Positions 5,428-32,522 of a stretch of 38,386 bases of DNA are shown piece by piece. This stretch comes from Fidelibacterota bacterium. Lineage in GTDB: Bacteria; Fidelibacterota; UBA8477. The translations under genes were made by a program, and so were the position numbers. Positions within the stretch are counted from its first letter, which is position 1. Every line of letters starts with the position of its first letter. Under the pieces are notes generated by a model that was not told the DNA's origin, made no database searches, and saw only the letters and a program-made list of their open reading frames with translations. Where the stretch lies: assembly GCA_021734045.1 (NCBI GenBank), contig JAIPJR010000015.1:1-38386 (forward strand). The letters are read 5' to 3'.

Positions 5428-5655
5428 TGGGGTGACTATGCCCACCTGGTGGGTGTAATTCTGATTGGATTTCCTTAGGGCAGGCCGTTAAAATCCTGCA
5501 ATATTTTTCATGTAACGATTTTCGGAATGCACGGTGGTGTGCATTTCAGCCACTCGGGCGGGAGATATTTTTCAACCATGCAACCGGAAAGAAATTCCCC
5601 ATGAAAAAGTTCAACTCCCTGGCAACGCTGACAATTCATCTGAGTCTAAAAGGCG

Positions 5656-6234
5656 GTGAATGAAGTGGTCATGAAGGATGAGATAAGACAGCTTATCGAG
5701 CGGGCTCAGAAAGGTGAAACCCGTGCTTTTAATGAAGTTATCAAGCTCTATGAGGACCGTGTGATGAGTGTGATATTAGGTATCACGCGGGACCGCACCG
5801 AAGCGGAAGATCTCTTTCAAGAGGTCTTTATTAAGCTGTTTACGAAAATTCGCCATTTCCGGTTTGAGAGTGATTTTTACACGTACCTCTACCGCATGAC
5901 AGTAAATATGTGCTTTAATGCCCATCGCCGGAAAAAACGCCACCATAACCTGTTCGCGGAAACCAGCGAAGATTTTTGGAAAGTGGCGGCAGCACCGGAA
6001 GAGGAGCCGGAGCCGGTGGATCGGGACGCGGAAATCGCCGCTGCCATCCAGCGTCACTACAAAGAATTACCTCCTCAACAACAAACGGTTTTTGGATTGA
6101 AATACTACGAGAATAAAAAAGTGAGCGAAATTTCAGAAATCCTGGGTGTGGGGGAAGGAACTATCAAACGGTACCTGTTCCGCGCCCGGGAGACCTTGCA
6201 GAAGGCTCTTGTTCAGGAAGGAATTACTCCATGA
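5656..6234 (+). CDS. ECF-type RNA polymerase sigma factor (start GTG 5656 or ATG 5671)
   Basis: DRTEAEDLFQEVFIKLF (region 2) and LPPQQQTVFGLKYYENKKVSEISEILGVGEGTIKRYLFRARETLQ (region 4). Confidence 0.93.
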   Translation: MNEVVMKDEIRQLIERAQKGETRAFNEVIKLYEDRVMSVILGITRDRTEAEDLFQEVFIKLFTKIRHFRFESDFYTYLYRMTVNMCFNAHRRKKRHHNLFAETSEDFWKVAAAPEEEPEPVDRDAEIAAAIQRHYKELPPQQQTVFGLKYYENKKVSEISEILGVGEGTIKRYLFRARETLQKALVQEGITP

Positions 6235-7226
6235 ATAAAATGACGACAAAAGAAATTCGGGAGTGGATTGTCCTCTATCTGGGTGATGAATTGTCATCTG
6301 AAAAACAGCAGTGGGTCGAAAAAATGATGCTGGAAGATGAGTCCTGGCGGTCTGCGTATCAGGCACAACAGAAGCTTGACAGCCTCTTTTCAATGGTGGA
6401 AAAGCCGGAGGTCGAGGACACCCCTTTTCCAGAGTTGCGGCGTGAAATATTGGGTCGTATCAGCCATCAGCGCAGGCCAGTGCTGCTGATTCTGAACTTC
6501 GTTAAGAATCAGTGGGCAACGTTGAAAGACCACGGCGTTCACCCGGTACTGGCTGGTGGGCTGGCGACCCTTGCCCTGGTCATTGGACTCGTTATCAATG
6601 GTTTACCGCAGGCTGGAACACCGCTGACGCAACAAGGTGCTGCTGATCCGTCATTACCACCTGAATCCCGGCTGTTCAACAGTCTCGTGGAAAAGGGCAC
6701 CGATTACCAAATGAAGCGAATGAAAGCCGATGAAAATGATCCGGGCAAAGTGAGCTTTGATTTTGAAGCCCCATCCGAAGATATGGAAATGATTGTTTCG
6801 CCGGATAATGCTGTTGTCCAGGACTACCTGATTCATCTGTTGAAAAACAGCAAAAATCCAAATCATCGCAGAAAATCCCTGAAAATTCTGGAAAACTACC
6901 AGGAAGTAGACCAGGTAGAAGAAGCCTTAATCACCACCATGCTCACAGACATGGACGATGGTGTTCGACTGAAAGCAATGCAGGCATTGAAGGATAATAA
7001 AATTACTCATAACCTGCAGGAAGCTTACATCCGTGTTCTCATGTCCGATCAAAATGCACGCATGCGTACCGATGCCGCCAAGCGCTTAGGGACCATCATG
7101 GATAAAGAACTGTTACCGGTGTATGAATATCAGGTACAAGTTGAAGAAAATGCCTACGTGAGCCAGATATTGAAGCAGAATATCGCCCGGTTGCGGGCTG
7201 ACACCGGAGGAGGAAACCTCCAGTGA
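6231..7226 (+). CDS. Putative anti-sigma factor: cytoplasmic N-terminus, one TM helix, HEAT-like periplasmic domain
   Basis: Overlaps the sigma gene by 4 nt; TM segment VLAGGLATLALVIGLVINGL; helical repeats (VVQDYLIHLLKNSKNPNHRRKSLKIL..., ALITTMLTDMDDGVRLKAMQAL...). Confidence 0.75.
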   Translation: MNKMTTKEIREWIVLYLGDELSSEKQQWVEKMMLEDESWRSAYQAQQKLDSLFSMVEKPEVEDTPFPELRREILGRISHQRRPVLLILNFVKNQWATLKDHGVHPVLAGGLATLALVIGLVINGLPQAGTPLTQQGAADPSLPPESRLFNSLVEKGTDYQMKRMKADENDPGKVSFDFEAPSEDMEMIVSPDNAVVQDYLIHLLKNSKNPNHRRKSLKILENYQEVDQVEEALITTMLTDMDDGVRLKAMQALKDNKITHNLQEAYIRVLMSDQNARMRTDAAKRLGTIMDKELLPVYEYQVQVEENAYVSQILKQNIARLRADTGGGNLQ

Positions 7227-8386
7227 AACGACTCATTCTGACCGGACTCGGTGTCATTTTTTCGACGATTTCGCTCGTCCGTGGCGCTGAAAAAGTCTTG
7301 CTGGATCAGGCTTTCAGTACCGGGGGCCAATTACACCTGATGCATGTGGTGGGTGAAGTGACCATCACCGGGTCGGAAGCAGACCATGTGAAAATCATAG
7401 AAGAGGTTTCTGATTTTTCACCTCGCTCCCGTGATGCGGAATTTTCCTCAGTTGAAATTGAGGGAAGCAGGATTGTGGTTTCTGCGCGACCCGGTTCGGG
7501 AACATATCGGGAAATCAGAGCCGAAGTACCTGCCTATTTCAGCGTAGCGGTTGGGGGCGCTGGTGGCGATATCTCAGTAAAAAATCTCACTGGTGAAGTG
7601 TTGATTCATATTTCTGGCGGTGATACGGAATTAGAGAATATCCGCGGGAAAGTGACAGTCCAGACCAAGGCAGGTGATGTGTATATGCGGGATATCCAGG
7701 GGCGCGTTTCCGTCACAACTCAGGGTGGAGATCTGGACCTCAGACAATTTCAGGGGAATGTGAGTCTGGAGAACAATGCCGGTGATGTGAGCATCACTGA
7801 TGGTACCGGCAATGTCAACATCCACTCTGGCAGTGGCGACCTGTTCGTAGGAGAGTTATCCGGTGATAGTCTGCAAGTCAATTTGAGAGCCGGGGATCTT
7901 CAGCTTGAAAATTTTCAGGGTCGGGGCATTTTTGTTCTCAAATATGGTGATGTGGATATTGAGAAGATGGCGGGTCCGCTTGATGTGGAGTTGGACATGG
8001 GCAGCCTGGCAATCCAGCGCTTGTTGGGTAGTCTGGATGCGCGGTTGAAAATCGGTGATTTGGAGGTCGAGGAACATTCTGGCAGTGGTCGAATCCGAAT
8101 TGACCGGGGGGATGTGGAGTATAGTTGGGAGATGCCGTCAACCGGCGGTGATGACAGTCTGTCAATTAACACGAAATTAGGTTCTGTTGCACTACGGCTG
8201 CCCGCTCAACTCAATCCATCATTATTCCTGGAGTCTTCTGAAGAGGCTGAGGGTTTGGAGAGATTTCGCGACGAGATGTCCAGGCAACAGCAGGGCATCA
8301 ATCGTTATGTTTACAGATACTCTGGTGACAATGGGACGGTAAAGATTACCACGAAAGTGGGAAAAATTCGAATTTACGAACGATAG
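7223..8386 (+). CDS. Secreted DUF4097-type (toastrack) beta-repeat protein
   Basis: Signal peptide; repeated GD.xx.....G.v strands (AGDVYMRDIQGRVSVTTQGGDLDLRQFQGNVSLENNAGDVSITDGTG). Confidence 0.8.
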   Translation: MKRLILTGLGVIFSTISLVRGAEKVLLDQAFSTGGQLHLMHVVGEVTITGSEADHVKIIEEVSDFSPRSRDAEFSSVEIEGSRIVVSARPGSGTYREIRAEVPAYFSVAVGGAGGDISVKNLTGEVLIHISGGDTELENIRGKVTVQTKAGDVYMRDIQGRVSVTTQGGDLDLRQFQGNVSLENNAGDVSITDGTGNVNIHSGSGDLFVGELSGDSLQVNLRAGDLQLENFQGRGIFVLKYGDVDIEKMAGPLDVELDMGSLAIQRLLGSLDARLKIGDLEVEEHSGSGRIRIDRGDVEYSWEMPSTGGDDSLSINTKLGSVALRLPAQLNPSLFLESSEEAEGLERFRDEMSRQQQGINRYVYRYSGDNGTVKITTKVGKIRIYER

Positions 8387-8397
8387 GAAGGTCTATT

Positions 8398-10119
8398 ATG
8401 GAACGCGTATCCAAAATCTTACTGACGGTGACTCTCATGAGTTCTATAAGCTGGGGACAGGGCGTGGTGAATACTGACTCGCTCAGCCAGGTTGTGGATT
8501 CATTATTGACCTTCTCGAAAGAAAAAGCGGTGAAAGTGGAGTCTGCAGATGAGGACGCTGGAGAAAAACACAAAGAGAGCAAAACCTCTCATTCTTCAAA
8601 GCGGGATTCGGAATTCCCAATTTTCGATAATTTCAAATCAAAACTGACCATCGGAAAATCCGATACACTCACCGAAGACAAAACCATCATTGCCGGCGAT
8701 GTGTTAATTGAAGGTGTTTTGTCCGCGAATATTAAGGTGTATGGTGGCAATGTGTGGATAAAGAGCAGCGGTGAGGTTTCCGGAAATATCCTGGTGAGCG
8801 GCGGACAAATCCGCGTTGACCCGGGTGCAAAAGTGACCGGCAGCCTGACGGAGATAAGCCTGGGTGGTATTGACGTTAAAAAGTCGCCTCTTGTGGATAA
8901 ATGGTTCGAGGAGGATGAATCGGAACCATCCTGGGATGAGGATGAGGATGTGTATGACGATGAGGAATCATGGGAATGGGAGCATAAGAATAAACGCGAA
9001 CTGACCCTAAGCACTTCCTTTGGTGAATCTGTGACTAATCCACAGAATCCTACCGTTCGTTACAATCGTCAGGAAGGGTTATTCCTGCCGTTGCGTACCG
9101 ATTTTACACTGGAGATAGGCGCCAAATTCCGGGGCTACCTGGGATATGGATTCGGGAATAAGAAAATGCGTTATGGCGCAGGTCTCACCATCCCGGTTTT
9201 CACGCCAAAAGTATTAGTGGACTTGAGTGTTTATGACCGCACAACCACACCTGACAGTTGGCGACTTTCGGAAACGGAAAATTCGCTGGTGGCCTTCCTT
9301 TTCGGGGAAGATTATCTGGATTATTACGAAGCGCAAGGTGTAGGTGGTAATCTTTTGATTCGCCCGCTGAAACACGGCATGGCATTCCGCCTGGGGGGCT
9401 ACTCTGAAGACCACACCTCCATGCCCAATGTGACGCAGTGGGGACTTTTCGCGAAGGATCGTTTTCGGCCGGGCTTCACCGTTTTCGAAGGTAACATCAC
9501 CGCGGCTACCGCTCATTTGGAATTGGGTGTGAATCCCTGGCGGAATTGGGGTGATTGGAACACCTATCTTCGCGACAAAGCTGATGCGTATCTTGGTAGC
9601 GGTATTTCAGTGAATCTGGATGCGGAAAAAACGCTGGCGGATTATTCGGATACCAATTTCGTTCGCCTGCGGGGTACCCTAAATCTGGGGTTAGCATTCT
9701 CCCGTGACTTCATCCTATACAATCGAACCATGTTTGCCACCTCGGATCAAAGTCTGATTGGCCAGCGGAATAATGATTTGGGTGGCTATGGAACGCTGCG
9801 TGGATTGCGTTATCGGGAAATGCCCGGTGATCAGAGTGTCTTGAATAACCTGGAGTTATGGATTGGTAGCCGGGAGTCCTTCCTGATTGATCCCTACCTG
9901 GTGCTGTTTCTGGATAGCGGTTTTGCCCGACAGTGGGTGGGAGCACCTACGGATGAACAGTGGCAGAATTTCCAAGGCATTCGCATCAGCGATCTGCGCC
10001 ACTCAGCGGGGGTAAGTGTCATGGATGAGGATGGCAGTTGGCGGTTATCCGTAGCGCGAGAATTGCAGAATTCTAATGCGGATTGGCGATTTGAACTCAG
10101 ACTCCAGGCGAGGTTATGA
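8398..10119 (+). CDS. Bactofilin-like polymer-forming segment fused to an Omp85-like outer-membrane barrel
   Basis: Signal peptide; TIIAGDVLIEGVLSANIKVYGGNVWIKSSGEVSGNILVSGGQIRVDPGAKVTGSL; acidic linker; GGYGTLRGLRYREMPGDQSVLNNLELWIGSR resembles the Omp85 L6 region. Confidence 0.7.
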   Translation: MERVSKILLTVTLMSSISWGQGVVNTDSLSQVVDSLLTFSKEKAVKVESADEDAGEKHKESKTSHSSKRDSEFPIFDNFKSKLTIGKSDTLTEDKTIIAGDVLIEGVLSANIKVYGGNVWIKSSGEVSGNILVSGGQIRVDPGAKVTGSLTEISLGGIDVKKSPLVDKWFEEDESEPSWDEDEDVYDDEESWEWEHKNKRELTLSTSFGESVTNPQNPTVRYNRQEGLFLPLRTDFTLEIGAKFRGYLGYGFGNKKMRYGAGLTIPVFTPKVLVDLSVYDRTTTPDSWRLSETENSLVAFLFGEDYLDYYEAQGVGGNLLIRPLKHGMAFRLGGYSEDHTSMPNVTQWGLFAKDRFRPGFTVFEGNITAATAHLELGVNPWRNWGDWNTYLRDKADAYLGSGISVNLDAEKTLADYSDTNFVRLRGTLNLGLAFSRDFILYNRTMFATSDQSLIGQRNNDLGGYGTLRGLRYREMPGDQSVLNNLELWIGSRESFLIDPYLVLFLDSGFARQWVGAPTDEQWQNFQGIRISDLRHSAGVSVMDEDGSWRLSVARELQNSNADWRFELRLQARL

Positions 10120-11042
10120 TGAAGAGCTTACAATTCAGGATAGCGTTGCTGTTGATGGTGGGTATGGTGTATGGCCAGCAGGGAACGGATGCCGGTGATG
10201 TAATGGCTTTGCAGCGGGAGTTTTACCTGAAGACGGCAAAAGCCGTGAAGGTGGAGATTGAGTGCCCGCTGGGCGAACTGGATGTGAAAAGCCAGCAGCA
10301 GGGACCGTTGGCGGTATTGGATCTGAAGAACAGTTTGCAGCATTTTGAATACCGGGTTTCCTACACCGAATCCAATAAAAGGGGCGAGTTAAAGGTCGGC
10401 GGCAGCGGCGAAAGTTCGGTGGACATGGATTTCACATCGATCAGTGACTACAAGAAGATTTTCGGGTTGGGTGAATCGCTGGAGCGTGAAAACCGGTGGC
10501 GGATCATGTTGAAGGAAGCTGATAATCTGCCCTATGATCTGGATATAGAAATTGGTCTTGGTGATGCTGATGTAGATCTGGGTAAGATGGCTATTGAACA
10601 ACTCAAGTTTAATTGCGGCCTCTCTGATGCGACCCTTGAGCTCAATGATCCCAATCCGATACGAATGCGGCGTCTGGAAGTGGATAACGGGATGGGTGCT
10701 TTTGAAGGGGTGATGCTTGGGAATGGCAATTTTGAACAGATGAAGGTGAGTGTGGGCATGGGGTCTGCCGACCTGGATTTGCGGGGAAAATATACCGACG
10801 ATGCGGATATTAAAGTGGATGTGGGCATGGGCAGTATCACGCTCAAAGTTCCCAATGACATGGATATTCGGGTTACTGTGAATGCCTCACCATTTTCCTC
10901 AGTTTCACTAGACGGTTTGGACAAGGAAGGAAAAACTTCCTACCGCTCGAAGAATTTTGGTGCCGGGAAACATACCCTGGATTTCAACATCAATGTGGGT
11001 ATGGGCAGTGTCGAAATGGAATTGGTTGACGACGCGCGCTAA
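10116..11042 (+). CDS. LiaF/toastrack-type periplasmic protein
   Basis: Signal peptide; repeated GMGSADLDL / [10 protein letters not shown] / GMGSVEMEL strands typical of LiaF-like C-terminal domains. Confidence 0.7.
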
Positions 11043-11069
11043 ACAACAGTTTCGACTATTCCACCGATG

Positions 11070-11100
11070 AGCCCTCATTCCTGAAATGGGGGCTTTTTTT
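11070..11100 (+). terminator. Rho-independent terminator ending the sigma/toastrack operon
   Basis: AGCCCTCATT-CCTGA-AATGGGGGCT then T7. Confidence 0.85.
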
Positions 11101-11167: not shown

Positions 11168-12529
11168 ATGACTTGGCAAATAGACGAAATCCTTGAAATT
11201 TTACGCATGACGGAGGTGGAGCATCTGGATATCCGCACCACCACGCTGGGGATTTCACTGCGGGATTGCATATCGGATTCAATGGATCGAACGAAACAGG
11301 CTATTTATGAAAAAATCACGCGCCGGGCCGAGAAACTCATTTCGGTAGCCACGCGTGTGGAGCAGGAGCTGGGTATTGCCATCGTGAATAAGCGGATTGC
11401 CATCACGCCACTGGCGATCGTAGCAGACCGGTTTGATCGCGATGGATTTGTTCAGTTGGCACAGACACTCGATCAGGCTGCCGCTGCGGTGGGTGTGGAT
11501 TATTTAGCGGGATATGGCGCATTGGTACAAAAGGGCTGTACACCGGGTGATCTGGCACTGATACACGCGATTCCGGAAGCATTGAGCCAGACGAAACACA
11601 TCACCGGTTTCGTTAATGTCGCTTCCACAAAAGCGGGAATTAACATGGATATGGTTGCCCAGATGGGGCGGACCATAAAAGATTTGGCGCAGGCGACTGC
11701 GGACACCGGCGGATTGGGGTGCGCAAAATTCGTGGTTTTTGCCAACGCGGTTGAGGATAACCCCTTTGTAGCCGGTGCATTCCACGGTGTCAGCGAACCG
11801 GAAGCGGTTATCAATGTGGGTATCAGCGGCCCTGGTGTCGTTCTGGATACCGTGAAAGCCATGTCCGGTGCCAATCTGCAGGAGTTGGGTGAAGGCATTA
11901 AGCGCACAGCCTTCAAAATTACGCGGGCTGGTGATTTGATAGGTCGAACGGTGGCTAATCGTCTGGGTGTTCCTTTCGGGATTGTGGATCTTTCGCTGGC
12001 ACCGACTCCTGCAGAAGGCGACAGTGTGGCAGATATTCTGAAAGCCATGGGGCTGGAAGATGTGGGTGGACCAGGCAGTACAGCAGCCCTGGCATTGTTA
12101 AATGACGCGGTGAAAAAGGGTGGTGCAATGGCTTCCCGCTCCGTGGGCGGTTTATCGGGTGCATTCATACCGGTCAGTGAGGACCAGGGAATGATTCGCG
12201 CTGTCCAGGCCGGTCATATGTCATTGGAAAAATTGGAAGCCATGACGGCGGTGTGTTCCGTGGGGCTGGATATGATTGCTGTTCCGGGTGATACACCGGC
12301 GGAAACCCTGGCGGCATTAATCGCCGATGAATGCGCAATCGGGATGATCAACAGCAAAACAACAGCTGTACGCGTCATACCCGTGCCAGGTATGCAGGCG
12401 GGTGAAATTGTGCATTACGGCGGTTTGTTGGGCTCGGCGCCGGTTATGCCCGTGAGTCGATTGAGTGCAAAGATATTTATAGGTCGCGGTGGTCGGATTC
12501 AGGCACCGCTTCAAAGCTTGTCCAATTAA
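11168..12529 (+). CDS. PFL family protein (UPF0210/DUF711)
   Basis: [73 protein letters not shown]. Confidence 0.92.
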
Positions 12530-25734: not shown

Positions 25735-26592
25735 CTATTTTTCCAGTGAGTGCTGGTGAATACAGAGCGCTGCTGCACCCAGAATAGCGATATGCTCCTC
25801 AGTGGAGCAGGTGATTTGGAGCCGGGTGAGCGTGCGGGGGAAAACCAGTGAATTCAGTACATTGAACATGCTTCCCTTGAACAGGGGGTAGGACTTGCTC
25901 ACTGAACCGCCCAGGATGATTAAGTGAGGATCAATCGCGTACACAATCATTTTCAGCGCGTTTCCCAGATGTCGTCCAAATTCTTCAAAGAGTTGCCGCG
26001 CGGACGAATCGCCCTTTCGGAAGAGTTGAGCCGCCTCCTGCCCTGAAATATCCGCCTTGCGGTGGAAAAACTTTCCACTACAATACTCTTCCAAAATGCC
26101 TTCCCGGTAGGGCAGCATACCAAATTCACCAGCTCCACCATTGGAGCCGGTGTAGAGGTGCCCATTCATGAGAATGCCTGATCCCAATCCCGTCCCCAGA
26201 ATCAATCCTACCACATTATTATAATCCCGCGCCTGACCAAAATATTTTTCCCCAATGACAAAAGCATTGGCATCATTATTAATCTCTGCCGGGCGATCGA
26301 ATTCTTTTTCCAACAGCATTTTCAAGGGCACTTCATGCCAACTGGGGATATTCTGGAGATTATAAACAATACCCCGCTGGTGGTCCACCGCACCGGGTAC
26401 CGCCACGCCGATACCCTTCACATCATCGGTAATAACCTCACGAATCAGCTCCACCAGTGTTTTGTAAACCTGACGACTTTCGTTGGTTTTTGGGACTGTA
26501 CGATTTTTGACTGCTTGTAATGTGTGTTTTTGAACCAACCCTACCCGCAGGTTGGTTCCTCCCAGGTCAACCCCCAACCAGCTCTCCGTCAT
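25735..26592 (-). CDS. ROK family sugar kinase
   Basis: LGVDLGGTNLRVGLV; GIGVAVPGAVD; NNDANAFVIGEKYFGQ; GLILGTGLGSGIL. Confidence 0.92.
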   Translation of the reverse strand: MTESWLGVDLGGTNLRVGLVQKHTLQAVKNRTVPKTNESRQVYKTLVELIREVITDDVKGIGVAVPGAVDHQRGIVYNLQNIPSWHEVPLKMLLEKEFDRPAEINNDANAFVIGEKYFGQARDYNNVVGLILGTGLGSGILMNGHLYTGSNGGAGEFGMLPYREGILEEYCSGKFFHRKADISGQEAAQLFRKGDSSARQLFEEFGRHLGNALKMIVYAIDPHLIILGGSVSKSYPLFKGSMFNVLNSLVFPRTLTRLQITCSTEEHIAILGAAALCIHQHSLEK

Positions 26593-26730
26593 GAATCAAC
26601 TCCATCCATATTATTTCCACCCGATGACTGGGCAAAGAATACGCCAAGCGCCGGATGGTTATCAAGCACAATTACGCACCGGTTCAGTTAAGAATTACAC
26701 CAGGGCTGCAAATATTTCTTGCATGTATCA

Positions 26731-26780
26731 AACGAATACGGTATTATCTGAACGAATATGGAACAAGAAAACGAATATCG
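26731..26780. promoter_or_regulatory. Three phased direct repeats (AACGAATA) upstream of the TetR gene, putative operator
   Basis: AACGAATA at 26731, 26751 and 26770 (19-20 bp spacing); the third copy reads ACGA-ATA-TCGT, a perfect inverted repeat. Confidence 0.45.
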
Positions 26781-26794
26781 TAAATAAGAGCCCT

Positions 26795-27406
26795 ATGGAA
26801 TCAATACTTCCCCCACGAAAAAACAAGAAACCACGCTCCAAGCATGATCAACTTTTAGCGTCCGCCAGAGAGCTCGTGAGTCGGCACGGCGTGCGGCGGG
26901 TAACCGTGGAAGAAATTTGTCGCAAAGCCAATGTGAGCAAGGTGACCTTCTACAAGTATTATCCCAATAAACAGGCGATTGTGTGGCGAATCCTGGACGA
27001 TATGGTGGAATACGGGGTTGCCAAGTTTAATGAGATTATCGACATGGATATCTCTTTCGAAGAAAAACTACGACTCATTATTCAGGTGAAGATGGAGGAG
27101 AGCGCCAAGTACAGTGAGGACTTCCTGGACGAGCTCATCCATGCTGATCCGGATTTGATGCAGCATTTTTGGGAAAAAGCCATTGCTGCCCAGAATTTGA
27201 CCATGGATTTTTTCAAAAAAGCACAGCAAAATGGCGAGCTGCGTACTGATATGAATCTGGACTTCCTCCAATTCATGCTGGACCATGTGCAGGATTTGAT
27301 TCAGGATCCACGCTTGAACAAATTGATTCCCTCGAAACTGGATTTAATTCGGGAGCTCATCAATTTTTGGTTCTACGGACTGTTACCTCAGGGAGGTTCC
27401 CGGTAA
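26795..27406 (+). CDS. TetR family transcriptional regulator (internal start preferred over ORF start 26552)
   Basis: ARELVSRHGVRRVTVEEICRKANVSKVTFYKYYPNKQAIVWRIL HTH; the upstream extension overlaps the divergent ROK gene. Confidence 0.9.
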   Translation: MESILPPRKNKKPRSKHDQLLASARELVSRHGVRRVTVEEICRKANVSKVTFYKYYPNKQAIVWRILDDMVEYGVAKFNEIIDMDISFEEKLRLIIQVKMEESAKYSEDFLDELIHADPDLMQHFWEKAIAAQNLTMDFFKKAQQNGELRTDMNLDFLQFMLDHVQDLIQDPRLNKLIPSKLDLIRELINFWFYGLLPQGGSR

Positions 27407-27408
27407 CC

Positions 27409-28497
27409 ATGGTGCACGCCAATTCTTCAATTTTGAAATTGCTGATAATTTGGACTGCACTTGCCCAACTGGCATTCGCCGGCGATTTCACCATTAAAAT
27501 GAGTCAGGACACCCGCGTGAATGATGCCTCCGGTTCTCCTCACATCTCGGTGCGGTTTTTACCGGAATATTTCGGACCGTTGGGAATGCTGAGTGGCGGA
27601 CAGCTGGAGATGGATGTGGCGGCTGACCTCTACTTCAACCTCACCACCGGCGCCCAGAGTATCCAATCGCCTTTGGATGAACTGCTCTACCGGTCGTGGC
27701 TACGCTGGTCAACCCATCAATTTGAGGTGCGGCTTGGAAAACAGGAGTTGAATTTTGGGCCGGCGCGACTGCTGCGATCGCTGCGCTGGTTTGATGCCCG
27801 TAATCCACTGGATCCTCTGGGGCTGACGCAGGGGGTCTGGGCATTTACAGGTCGCTATTACTGGCTGGACAACAAGAATTTATGGGCATGGACGATTTTC
27901 AATCCGAGAGATCTGGCCATGGGCATTGATCTCTACCCGGCTGAACGACGTACCTTTCAGCTGGGCGGGCGTCTTCAAATTCCAATGGGATTGGGCAATC
28001 TGGCAGTGACCATTCATGAGAAGGTGTTGGCGGGTAGCGAGACACCGGAATGGCGCATCGGTCTGGATGGCCAATGGGATGTTGGTGTGGGACTGTGGTT
28101 CGAAGCGGTGCGGGTGATGGAACCCAAATCCAGTACTATAGCATGGATGAACCTTGTCACGCTGGGCGGCGATTACACGTTTGGTATTGGAAATGGATTA
28201 TATGCCGTAACGGAATACCAGAATATTCACAATTCAGCGCTGGATCAACCCAGTCAGACATTTGCTGCGCAACTCAACTATCCCATCGGGTTCATGGATC
28301 AGCTCTTTTTGCTCACGCTGTACAATGATAATCTCCATTTTTCCGGTTATTATGCCGGATGGCAGCGCCAGTATGACCGGTTGAGCTGGCAGATTCTGGC
28401 CGGTTATATGGATAAAGAATTAACTTGGCAGGCGTCATCCTCCATTGCATTCATGGCGCAGAAAAGCCTGCAGTTAACCCTGATGTACACCATTTGA
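27409..28497 (+). CDS. Outer-membrane beta-barrel protein (porin-like)
   Basis: Signal peptide; alternating hydrophobic strands; FEVRLGKQELNFGPARLLRSLRWFDARNPLDPLGLTQG; C-terminal strand QLTLMYTI. Confidence 0.7.
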   Translation: MVHANSSILKLLIIWTALAQLAFAGDFTIKMSQDTRVNDASGSPHISVRFLPEYFGPLGMLSGGQLEMDVAADLYFNLTTGAQSIQSPLDELLYRSWLRWSTHQFEVRLGKQELNFGPARLLRSLRWFDARNPLDPLGLTQGVWAFTGRYYWLDNKNLWAWTIFNPRDLAMGIDLYPAERRTFQLGGRLQIPMGLGNLAVTIHEKVLAGSETPEWRIGLDGQWDVGVGLWFEAVRVMEPKSSTIAWMNLVTLGGDYTFGIGNGLYAVTEYQNIHNSALDQPSQTFAAQLNYPIGFMDQLFLLTLYNDNLHFSGYYAGWQRQYDRLSWQILAGYMDKELTWQASSSIAFMAQKSLQLTLMYTI

Positions 28498-28586
28498 GCA
28501 GAAAATTTTAAGATGCATACTAATCTGGCAAACAACTGTAACCCCCACTCCACCGCTTTCAGCGGTTGGAAGGGCAGGAGCGACGG

Positions 28587-29300
28587 ATGAAATCAACGAC
28601 CCAACCTTTGATTGAGCTAAAAAATGTGGTCAAACGCTATCCCATGGGTACCACCTGGTTTACGGCGCTGGAGGCGATTGATCTAACCGTGGAAAAAGGT
28701 GAATTTACCGGCATTGTAGGACCCAGTGGATCGGGGAAAACAACCCTGTTGAACATCATTGGCTCGTTGGATTCACCAACCGAGGGTTCTGCGCAGGTAC
28801 TGGGACATTTTATCGAGAAGCTCTCTCACAAGGAGGCCGCCCGCCTGCGCAATCATCATTTGGGATTCATTTTTCAGACCTACAATCTGCTTCCGGTTTA
28901 TACGGTGTACGAGAATGTGGAATTCCCGCTCCTGCTGCTGGGGCTCAGTAACGACGAGCGAAAGAAGATGGTCCTGGATGCCCTGGAGTGGGTGGGGTTG
29001 ACGGACAAGATGAAAAGCCGTCCCGCGCAATTATCCGGTGGCGAATCCCAACGGGTGGCCATCGCCCGGGCAGTGGTGAAAAAGCCGGAACTGGTGTTAG
29101 CGGACGAGCCCACTGCCAATCTGGATGCGGAAAATTCGCATCATATTTTAAAGGCCATGGTGCGGCTGAATCAGGAATTGGGAACCACGTACCTGTTCTC
29201 CACCCATGACGAAAAGGTGATTCAATACCTGCGGCGTAAGATCACGCTATTCGACGGGAAAATCGCTTCCGATGACGTGATGACACCGCAAGGAGGTTAG
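28587..29300 (+). CDS. ABC transporter ATP-binding protein (LolD/MacB type)
   Basis: GPSGSGKTTLLNIIGSLDSPTEG; LSGGESQRVAIARAVVKKPELVLADEPTANLD; SD GGCAGGAG before ATG 28587. Confidence 0.95.
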   Translation: MKSTTQPLIELKNVVKRYPMGTTWFTALEAIDLTVEKGEFTGIVGPSGSGKTTLLNIIGSLDSPTEGSAQVLGHFIEKLSHKEAARLRNHHLGFIFQTYNLLPVYTVYENVEFPLLLLGLSNDERKKMVLDALEWVGLTDKMKSRPAQLSGGESQRVAIARAVVKKPELVLADEPTANLDAENSHHILKAMVRLNQELGTTYLFSTHDEKVIQYLRRKITLFDGKIASDDVMTPQGG

Positions 29301-30478
29301 TGATTATGCTGCTCTTTAAGTTGGCTTTTCGTAATGTAATTGGGGCGGGATTGCGGACCTGGCTCAATGTGGTGGTTTTGTCGCTTTCATTTGTCACCAT
29401 TATCGGTATGCAGGGTTTATACAAGGGTATGCAGTACCAATCGGAGGATGCCATGATCCGGGTTGAATATGCCGGTGGACAGTATTGGCATCCCAAATAT
29501 GATCCCTACGATCCCTTCACGCTGGAGGAGAGTCATCAGCCTGTAACCGGTGCTGCCCGGCGGGCCGTGGAGGCCGGTGACGCCATCCCTATCCTGATTA
29601 CGCAAGCCACGATTTATCCTCAGGGGCGGGTTTCGTCGGCATTGCTGAAGGGTATCCCTCCCGAGCAGGAGATCATGGAATTTCCCAGTGAACAGCTTCT
29701 GCGGACAGATCACGCGATTCCGGCGCTCATCGGCACCAGAATGGCCAAGGCAAATCGTTTGGCTGTAGGCGATTACCTCACGGTACGCTGGCGGGATGCC
29801 AATGGCACCTTCGATGCCCAGGATGTGCAGATTGTACATATTTTTTCCACCATCGTCGGCAGTGTAGATGGCGGCCAAATCTGGGTGCCATTGCAGCACT
29901 TACAGTCCATGTTGAAAATGCCCGGTGAAGCCACGCTGATTACATTGAAACAAGAGATTTCCGAACCGCCGGTACTCCCGGGATGGGATTATAAGGGCAT
30001 GGATATTCTCATGGCGGATCTCCGTGAGATGGTGGCCAGTAAGCAGGTCGGTGGATCAATCATGTATTTTCTGCTGCTATTTCTGGCGTTATTAGCCATT
30101 TTTGACACGCAGGTACTTTCTATTTGGCGGCGCAAGAAGGAGATGGGGACGCTCATGGCACTGGGGTTAACGCGGCGTCAGCTCATTGGGCTGTTTACTA
30201 TAGAAGGCGGGATGTACGGTATTCTGGCAGCTTTACTGGGGGCGATTTATGGTACACCGCTCATCGTCTGGTTTGCCACGCATGGTTGGGAGATGCCGGA
30301 AATGGTTGACGATTTTGGGTTTGCCATGGGCAGTAAACTGGTACCCAGTTACTCCTTTTTCCTGGTACTGGGGTCCACCCTGTTGGTGCTCCTGACCGTT
30401 ACAATTGTGAGTTTCCTACCTACCCGCAGAATTGCCAAACTTGAACCTACCGATGCATTGCGGGGGAAGCTCACATGA
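29300..30478 (+). CDS. FtsX/MacB-type ABC transporter permease (ATG 29306 is an alternative start)
   Basis: N-terminal TM, periplasmic domain, three C-terminal TM; KKEMGTLMALGLTRRQLIGLFTIEGGMYGILAALLGAIYG. Confidence 0.9.
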   Translation: MIMLLFKLAFRNVIGAGLRTWLNVVVLSLSFVTIIGMQGLYKGMQYQSEDAMIRVEYAGGQYWHPKYDPYDPFTLEESHQPVTGAARRAVEAGDAIPILITQATIYPQGRVSSALLKGIPPEQEIMEFPSEQLLRTDHAIPALIGTRMAKANRLAVGDYLTVRWRDANGTFDAQDVQIVHIFSTIVGSVDGGQIWVPLQHLQSMLKMPGEATLITLKQEISEPPVLPGWDYKGMDILMADLREMVASKQVGGSIMYFLLLFLALLAIFDTQVLSIWRRKKEMGTLMALGLTRRQLIGLFTIEGGMYGILAALLGAIYGTPLIVWFATHGWEMPEMVDDFGFAMGSKLVPSYSFFLVLGSTLLVLLTVTIVSFLPTRRIAKLEPTDALRGKLT

Positions 30479-31749
30479 TACGATTCCTATTGAAAGGTTT
30501 GTTACGGGATCGCTCCCGCAGTCTGTTCCCGATTCTCACTGTCACCGCCGGTGTCATGGCCACATCCCTGGGGCATTCCTGGTTCAATGGAGCGCTGGGA
30601 GGAATGATTACCACCACGGCCAATTTTCAAACCGGCTATGTGAAGGTTATGTCGCGGGCTTATGCAGAATTGTCAGACGAAATGCCCAATGATCTGGCAT
30701 TGGTGGAAGTGGAAGCCTTGCTGGATGAGTTAGAAAATGCCTATCCGGAATGGCAGTTCACTCCCCGGATTCATTTCGGTGGACTCCTGGATATTCCCGA
30801 TGAACATGGTGAAACCCGCTCCCAGGCACCGACGATGGGGTTTGCCGTGGATTTGTTAAATCCTGATGCCGGCGAGCTGAAGCGATTAAAAATCAACGAA
30901 TCCATCGTACGGGGCAGGGCGCCCCAACAGCCCAATGAGATTCTGGTGGCTGATGAGTTGGCACGCAAACTGGAAGTGGAGCCGGGTCAGGTGGCCACAA
31001 TTATCAGCAGTACCATGAATGGGAGCATGGCATTTTTTAATTTCACGGTTTCGGGTACGGTGAATTTTGGCATTCTCGCGCTGGACCGGGGTAGTATCAT
31101 TGCAGATATCAGGGGGGCACGCCGGGCACTGGATATGGAGGATGCTGCCGGTGAAATTGTGGGTTTTATGCCGGGTGATAATTACCGCGATGAGACCGCC
31201 CAGGCATTAGCTGACGATTTCAACGCTCGATATTCCTATACCGAAGACCAGTTTTCACCCACCATGGTTACCCTTGCGGATCAAAACGGAAATCGCTGGA
31301 TTCTGGATATGGTAGGTGCCATGGGATCGATACTGGTAACGATATTTATTATCGTGATGTCATTGGTTCTGTGGAATTCCGGGCTGATGGGCAGTTTGCG
31401 ACGCTATGGCGAAATCGGTGTTCGGTTGGCGATTGGCGAATCCCACGGGCAGATTTATCGCGCCATGCTGTTGGAATCGGTACTGATTGGGATCATGGGC
31501 TCCATCATTGGTACGGCCATCGGGGTATCACTGGGATTGTGGATTCAGTCTCATGGAATTGATATTGGTTCCATGATGAAGGAGAGCAGCATTATGATGG
31601 ACAATGTCATCCGCACCAAGGTCACCACCACCACCTGGTACATTGGCTTTATCCCCGGACTGCTGGCCACCTTCATCGGTACCGCCTTCGCCGGAATCGG
31701 GATATACCGGCGCCAAACCGCATCGCTATTTAAAGAATTGGAGGTTTGA
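30475..31749 (+). CDS. FtsX/MacB-type ABC transporter permease
   Basis: RYGEIGVRLAIGESHGQIYRAMLLESVLIGIMGSIIGTAIG; overlaps the previous permease by 4 nt. Confidence 0.9.
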   Translation: MIRFLLKGLLRDRSRSLFPILTVTAGVMATSLGHSWFNGALGGMITTTANFQTGYVKVMSRAYAELSDEMPNDLALVEVEALLDELENAYPEWQFTPRIHFGGLLDIPDEHGETRSQAPTMGFAVDLLNPDAGELKRLKINESIVRGRAPQQPNEILVADELARKLEVEPGQVATIISSTMNGSMAFFNFTVSGTVNFGILALDRGSIIADIRGARRALDMEDAAGEIVGFMPGDNYRDETAQALADDFNARYSYTEDQFSPTMVTLADQNGNRWILDMVGAMGSILVTIFIIVMSLVLWNSGLMGSLRRYGEIGVRLAIGESHGQIYRAMLLESVLIGIMGSIIGTAIGVSLGLWIQSHGIDIGSMMKESSIMMDNVIRTKVTTTTWYIGFIPGLLATFIGTAFAGIGIYRRQTASLFKELEV

Positions 31750-31751
31750 GC

Positions 31752-32522
31752 ATGATTGGCGTCACTAGTATGAATCGAATTGGTCGCGCTATTTTCGTAC
31801 TCATGGTGTCTCAGTTAACACCACTTCTGAATGGGCAGCAGCAACCCACTGCGAAGGAATTACTACAAGCGCTGGATGACAACATGGTGGCGGAGAACCG
31901 GGTGACGGTTTCCACCATGATTATTCACGGCCGGCGTGGTAGTCGCTCCATTCAATCCAAATCCTGGACTCAGGGCAGCGAAAAAGCCTATACTGAATAT
32001 CTGGCACCGGCACGAGAGCGGGGTACCAAAATGCTGAAGGTGGGTGACCAGCTCTGGACCTATTCACCTGCCACAGACCGCATCATTCAGATTGCCGGTC
32101 ACATGTTGCGGCAATCGGTCATGGGGTCCGACCTGAGTTATGAAGACATGATGGAAGATCAGACATTATCGGAAATGTATTCCCCGGAAATTGTGGGGAG
32201 TGAACCCGTTGACGGGCGTGACTGCTGGATTCTGGAACTCACGGCCAAAAATCCCGGCATCACCTATCATTCCCGCCGGGTTTGGATTGACAAGGAGCGG
32301 AATATTGCGCTGAAGGAAACCCGTTATGCCGCCAGCGGGAAATTATTGAAAGAAGCTTTGGTCAAAGAGGTTTTTCAAGTGGAAGGACGCTGGTACCCCA
32401 AACACATGACCTTCAAAGATATGCTTTCGACGGGTGAAGGAACCGAGTTTATCGTGGACTCCATAGACTTCAACGCAGAAATACCGGATTATATTTTTAC
32501 GAAAGCAGTATTAAGAAGGTAG
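31752..32522 (+). CDS. LolA-like outer membrane lipoprotein-sorting protein
   Basis: Signal peptide; AYTEYLAPARERGTKMLKVGDQLWTYSPATDRIIQIAGHMLRQSVMGSDLSYEDMM; VWIDKERNIALKETRYAASGKLLKE. Confidence 0.88.
   Translation: MIGVTSMNRIGRAIFVLMVSQLTPLLNGQQQPTAKELLQALDDNMVAENRVTVSTMIIHGRRGSRSIQSKSWTQGSEKAYTEYLAPARERGTKMLKVGDQLWTYSPATDRIIQIAGHMLRQSVMGSDLSYEDMMEDQTLSEMYSPEIVGSEPVDGRDCWILELTAKNPGITYHSRRVWIDKERNIALKETRYAASGKLLKEALVKEVFQVEGRWYPKHMTFKDMLSTGEGTEFIVDSIDFNAEIPDYIFTKAVLRR

Follow-up and report, generated by a model that had tools for sequence, protein, structure and literature searches.

The DNA analysed in this work (the window, 38,386 nucleotides) is contig C83 of a 2.54 Mb draft genome of a Fidelibacterota bacterium (GCA_021734045.1, contig JAIPJR010000015.1), and it carries on its forward strand five tightly packed open reading frames (ORFs) headed by a sigma factor gene, which we describe here as a single operon (Table 1). 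The distances between successive ORFs are -4, -4, +11, and -4 nt, and the last one is followed by a terminator-like hairpin of 11 pairs with the T-run TTTTTATG after it; this hairpin is the top one of 7 matches, a number that shuffled sequences also reach on average (7.0). A first-pass annotation made from the sequence had claimed a five-gene coupled layout with overlaps, one 11-nt gap, and a terminator near 11070, and had distributed the products among cytoplasm, inner membrane, periplasm, and outer membrane. The ORF coordinates and the hairpin agree with the former, and hydropathy, AlphaFold2 models, and Foldseek comparisons agree with the latter.

Table 1. Features of the operon, in positions of the window
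Feature	Position	Strand	Basis
Predicted promoter of the extracytoplasmic function (ECF) type, TGGCAAC-N17-GTCTAA	5620..5649 (-35 5620-5626, -10 5644-5649)	+	motif common to relatives' operons
ECF sigma factor	5671..6234 (probable start ATG 5671; ORF open from GTG 5656)	+	Pfam, TIGR02937
Predicted membrane anti-sigma factor with periplasmic HEAT domain, 331 aa	6231..7226	+	AlphaFold2, profile match, Pfam HEAT_2, zinc motif in relatives
TR1, predicted exported toastrack (DUF4097)	7223..8386	+	Pfam, signal-like N-terminus in homologues
BAR, predicted beta-solenoid/Omp85-barrel fusion with signal peptide	8398..10119	+	AlphaFold2, Foldseek, profile match
TR2, predicted exported toastrack (LiaF-like_C, Toast_rack_N)	10116..11042	+	Pfam, signal-like N-terminus in homologues
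Predicted Rho-independent terminator	11069..11095	+	11-bp hairpin, then TTTTTATG

The first protein is an ECF (group IV) sigma-70 factor that consists of regions 2 and 4 only. In fact, its Sigma70_r2 (PF04542, 2e-15) and r4_2 (PF08281, 4e-14) matches both exceed the Pfam cut-off, the sigma70-ECF family TIGR02937 is matched with 116.6 bits against a cut-off of 42.9 (8e-34), and all homologues are cytosolic according to hydropathy. The ATG at 5671 is more likely to be its start than the GTG at 5656 because this places it some 50 nt downstream of the conserved promoter, a spacing also found in the relatives. These relatives, here and below, come from a sample of 175 genomes of Candidatus Neomarinimicrobiota (SAR406, now Fidelibacterota).

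The second protein is modelled by AlphaFold2 (mean pLDDT 82.8) as a class I four-helix anti-sigma domain (aa 6-79, 6246-6467; helices 6-17, 23-35, 37-55, and 66-79), a transmembrane helix (aa 105-124, 6543-6602), a small element of three strands, and a HEAT solenoid (aa 194-326, 6810-7208). The solenoid is recognized by Pfam as HEAT_2 (35.4 bits, cut-off 27.7) and its best Foldseek matches are HEAT-like alphaRep proteins, and a single membrane helix is predicted from hydropathy in 61 of 65 homologues. A profile built from 59 homologues matched 3hug_B, which we take to be the SigL anti-sigma of M. tuberculosis, over aa 11-58 (E 8e-4, the sole anti-sigma match with E < 0.001), and it also gave weak matches to the anti-sigmas RsrA and RsiW. 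The zinc motif Hx3Cx2C is present at the anti-sigma N-terminus in the families that we label f5, f6, f9, f12, and f13, and one relative (L063) exceeds the zf-HC2 cut-off of Pfam; the motif is missing from the window protein, and its cysteines are gone from many other homologues also. As this motif occurs in only ∼56% of the class I anti-sigma family and its loss is common (PMC7406223), we regard it as an optional feature. In families f29 and f15 (L106-L114) the first three helices of the domain are gone and only the fourth is kept (WLxxQRxxLxGAI), the helix that, in complexes already known, touches sigma region 2 (PMC7406223). The profile and the model thus support the second protein being a class I membrane anti-sigma factor, the predicted partner of the adjoining sigma.

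The other three products carry signal-like N-termini according to hydropathy, detected in 62 of 64 homologues of TR1, 42 of 46 of BAR, and 48 of 49 of TR2. TR1 is a DUF4097 toastrack (67.0 bits versus a cut-off of 22.9, 2.2e-18) for which no sequence-level relative was found in the PDB, and TR2 belongs to LiaF-like_C (40.0 bits versus 29, 4.1e-10). The AlphaFold2 model of BAR contains a beta-solenoid (aa 82-162, 8641-8883) joined by an acidic, disordered linker to a barrel (aa 221-573, 9058-10116). When this model was compared to the PDB with Foldseek, the top matches listed were all BamA or TamA (best 1.7e-12, BamA; TMt 0.70 for the TamA barrel 8us4), and a sequence profile retrieved the barrel of the POTRA protein 9ccg (1.5e-8) together with BamA and TamA. 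The barrel also bears a GGxGTLRG-like loop motif. BAR falls below the cut-off of the Pfam Omp85 family, its DUF5686 match is sub-threshold too, and neither Pfam nor the model revealed a POTRA domain, the N-terminus being the beta-solenoid. From profile and fold we therefore assign the predicted barrel to Omp85, of the BamA/TamA type and devoid of POTRA domains. The solenoid follows a short right-handed pattern with regular GG turns and is weakly matched by 6ria and 2n3d. Its membership of the bactofilin family (PF04519) was rejected, as the window copy reaches 22.3 and the highest score obtained is 26.5 against a cut-off of 27.9; of the bactofilin-barrel fusion proposed in the first-pass annotation the outer-membrane barrel stands, and "bactofilin-like" is the term that fits the rest.

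Strong matches to the HEAT anti-sigma profile (E below 1e-18) were found in 77 of the 175 genomes, and matches to the barrel profile in 67, some of them with the barrel only. Among 65 anti-sigma loci mapped in 20 families, the sigma gene is directly upstream in 61, a DUF4097 toastrack gene is directly downstream in 61, and the full five-gene set occurs in the order of the window in 32 loci from 12 families. Of the four loci scored without sigma, three are cut by a contig end or have a shortened sigma ORF, and the fourth (L073) does have the sigma gene, its anti-sigma start having been called too far upstream. The sigma/anti-sigma/TR1 core is joined by TR2 and no barrel in f5, f9, f12, and f13, by the barrel and no TR2 in f6, and by neither in f3; a four-gene version is also present in a genome assembled as a single contig (G036, 2,788,509 bases, 45.1% GC over 17 kb). 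A strong full-length anti-sigma match was not found in f2, a family of the same taxonomic order, or in the streamlined f7 (0.7-1.0 Mb). The order sigma/HEAT anti-sigma/toastrack/(barrel)/(LiaF-type toastrack) is therefore kept in at least 20 families, and the neighbourhood on which the first-pass annotation had staked its proposal is conserved. TR1, the most constant neighbour (61/65 loci), is for this reason the best candidate for a direct, predicted partner of the HEAT domain.

In the 32 complete operons, the pairwise distances computed for each of the five proteins are correlated with those of the others (r = 0.89-0.96, mean identities 32-49%, no baseline protein being included), as expected for genes inherited jointly. 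A profile of the barrel subfamily run against 84,980 species returned 38 loci, all of them Neomarinimicrobiota/Marinimicrobia records, two titled 'FCB group bacterium'; the query covered the NRNEG/QDFYDRW subgroup, which leaves room for distant relatives in other phyla, and, going by these sequence matches, the circuit has so far turned up in no other phylum. A malate dehydrogenase gene lies upstream of many operons, and we judged it a housekeeping neighbour and not a component of the system because it is missing from that position in several families. Loci in f10 (L048, L053) and f11 (L057) contain TR1-BAR or BAR alone behind a gene of malate dehydrogenase size, with neither sigma nor anti-sigma, which apparently reflects loss of the regulator and retention of the exported parts. 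In two f22 genomes (G073 and G074, L305-L313) the operon holds only sigma, anti-sigma, and TR2, and among the 6-8 promoter sites per genome are some that precede genes located apart from the operon, for bactofilin-like secreted proteins, DUF2807 toastracks, PspC, and S46/M1 peptidases; the function of the BAR solenoid may be supplied in trans there.

The operons share a predicted promoter with the consensus GACAAC-N17/18-GTC or, including the full -35, TGACAACC-N16/17-GTCWAA, located at about -35 to -55 relative to the sigma start. The strict pattern precedes the sigma gene in 50 of 63 operons, compared to a mean of 0.55 in dinucleotide shuffles, and most of the remaining operons have near variants or good scores after correction of the start codon; of five operons that scored low at first, four (L060, L061, L066, and L077) are explained by a mis-called sigma start. 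The window site scores 17.5, when 15.0 marks 0.1% of the null. Genome-wide, TGACAAC-N17/18-GTCWAA occurs 116 times in the 77 sigma-bearing genomes (42 for the reversed-pattern control) and 18 times in the 98 sigma-free ones (55 for the control). This contrast has a Fisher p of 1.4e-9 with 25 own-operon sites excluded, a value to be taken as indicative because genomes within a clade are not independent.

A position weight matrix trained on operon promoters only found a site upstream of 30 of 54 YIP1 genes in sigma-bearing genomes and of 1 of 16 in sigma-free ones (p = 4e-4), and the sole sigma-free genome with such a site (G099) has a barrel gene. In the window genome the site G000:C59:13203 precedes a YIP1-TolC-HlyD-ABC ATPase-MacB-MacB series (names after YIP1 read from the sequences), and the same order is found behind the site in G102. 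Other genes recurrent behind the site encode DUF2807 and DUF4097 toastracks, PmbA/TldD, DUF5916/CBM9 proteins, and M1 and S46 peptidases, to which PspC (seen only as a predicted target, in f22) and a sub-threshold BamE-like lipoprotein can be added; in each of the three genus members, a TonB gene too is preceded by a promoter-like site. The predicted regulon is an envelope-type gene list. Elsewhere in the window genome (L281, G000:C2, 961-4881), two tandem DUF2807-type genes are followed by an M61-like peptidase gene, with a promoter-like site, shared with the genus-mate G001, before the second of them.

All these data suggest, with a probability that we put at about three in four, that the operon encodes an autoregulated ECF sigma/anti-sigma envelope-stress circuit of Neomarinimicrobiota. 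The sigma factor would be held in the cytosol by the N-terminal domain of the HEAT protein, whose single membrane helix would lead to a periplasmic HEAT domain able to read the state of the exported partners, namely TR1, the outer-membrane solenoid-Omp85 protein, and TR2. Envelope damage or failed outer-membrane assembly would shift the state of the partners or of the HEAT domain and free the sigma factor, which would then transcribe its own operon from the shared promoter and drive a small envelope regulon comprising the YIP1-TolC-MacAB-like exporter, toastracks, PspC, PmbA/TldD, M1/S46 peptidases, and DUF5916 proteins. The variable BAR and TR2 may tune or execute the response. An envelope-stress or assembly surveillance circuit had already been considered plausible in the first-pass annotation; the conserved neighbourhood and the compartments speak for it, and the promoter and the predicted regulon go beyond what had been claimed.

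Several observations weigh against this proposal. The contrast between sigma-bearing and sigma-free genomes is phylogenetically clustered, the window genome itself has 8 pattern matches versus 9 for the reversed control, so that its promoter support comes from sites common to its two genus-mates, and most YIP1 genes in f6, f29, and f3 have no site. The promoter could serve other ECF sigmas of these genomes too. Furthermore, BAR and TR2 are each missing from some families, and therefore neither is indispensable to the sensor. It is unlikely, in our opinion, that the main role of the operon is outer-membrane assembly or scaffolding by the Omp85 barrel, the solenoid, and beta-helical toastracks, with a sigma of its own for dosage that has few or no other targets: three of its five products are exported beta-rich proteins by prediction, and f10 keeps TR1-BAR in the absence of both regulators, but BAR is missing in f3, f5, f9, f12, and f13 though the core is retained, and promoter sites are enriched outside the operon in sigma-bearing genomes. 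We give still less credit to the possibility that the HEAT protein is a structural membrane protein, with the sigma factor controlled transcriptionally or by another factor. The window copy without Hx3Cx2C and the f29 and f15 proteins without the first three helices would fit it, but relatives keep the zinc finger, many class I anti-sigmas do without it (PMC7406223), profile and fold match this class, and the HEAT protein adjoins the sigma in 61/65 loci. Cell-surface signalling of the FecI/FecR type, with the barrel as a transport receptor and uptake induced once the anti-sigma is informed of the receptor's occupancy, seems the most improbable. In its favour, one operon combines the sigma with a membrane anti-sigma and an outer-membrane protein, and the TonB gene has its promoter-like site in three genus members; these points are countered by an Omp85-type barrel, by an operon with neither FecR domain nor TonB plug, and by recurrent targets that are export pumps, toastracks, and proteases and not TonB receptors.

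The envelope-stress circuit that we favour resembles RpoE/RseA(/RseB) and SigW/RsiW in that a sigma factor lies beside a single-membrane-helix anti-sigma with an N-terminal four-helix domain, and in its predicted autoregulated promoter and envelope-type regulon. However, its sensor side would be made of a HEAT domain, toastracks, and an Omp85-solenoid protein, and the window anti-sigma has lost the zinc motif. The PSP/Lia systems (LiaFSR, VraTSR) also tie toastracks (DUF4097, LiaF-like, DUF2807) and PspC to a transcriptional stress output. Because Pfam found no RseB (MucB_RseB) in the operon, and no PspA, LiaI-LiaF-TM, or two-component genes among its five genes, we have filed the circuit under neither RpoE/RseA/RseB nor Lia/PSP. 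A study of toastrack contexts mentions an operonically linked sigma factor in a four-gene DUF2089 context and infers an intracellular toastrack (Ravi et al. 2024, PMC11237479); the toastracks reported here have signal-like N-termini and are predicted to be exported, and the HEAT anti-sigma and the Omp85 fusion are not among the toastrack contexts of that work. The predicted BAR barrel shares the BamA/TamA fold with the Omp85/TpsB superfamily, whose ten subfamilies include WD40, patatin, metallo, and noNterm as non-POTRA N-termini (PMC4104836), but BAR differs from all ten in its bactofilin-like beta-solenoid, and from cytosolic bactofilins in that this solenoid would be exported as part of a fusion with an outer-membrane barrel.

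The open-licence literature gave us no account of an anti-sigma with a HEAT domain alongside toastracks, of a fusion of the solenoid-Omp85 kind, or of the promoter and regulon reported here, which is weak evidence of novelty, and that literature yielded nothing on envelope monitoring in SAR406/Neomarinimicrobiota. We read the circuit as a known sigma/anti-sigma plan in which the HEAT-domain sensor and the Omp85 architecture are new. SAR406/Neomarinimicrobiota is a widespread phylum formally described from a single cultured species, Fidelibacter multiformis, whose cell-wall formation depends on other bacteria (PMC11652737). A circuit, a promoter, and a likely regulon can now be named for this little-known and mostly uncultured phylum, with testable targets predicted, and with the solenoid-Omp85 fusion a central protein family gains a further domain architecture. 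It is tempting to speculate, and we consider it rather doubtful, that the POTRA-less Omp85 solenoid reports assembly status via the exported toastracks to the HEAT anti-sigma, forming a line from outer membrane to cytoplasm. If true, envelope-stress sensors would be of three kinds, this one besides RseA/RseB and Lia/PSP, and such a surveillance line would lie at the core of SAR406 envelope homeostasis.

Other genes of the window deserve mention. Co-directional genes at 26552-32522 encode a TetR-type regulator, a possible barrel protein that Pfam does not recognize, an ABC ATPase, a pair of permeases of which one matches FtsX, and a LolA-like protein for lipoprotein sorting that weakly matches MucB_RseB, and this is a Lol/Mac-type export cluster. 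Finally, the gene directly downstream of the operon terminator (11168-12529) encodes a DUF711 protein (606 bits), and an ORF of equal length also follows the operon in the genus-mate G001.

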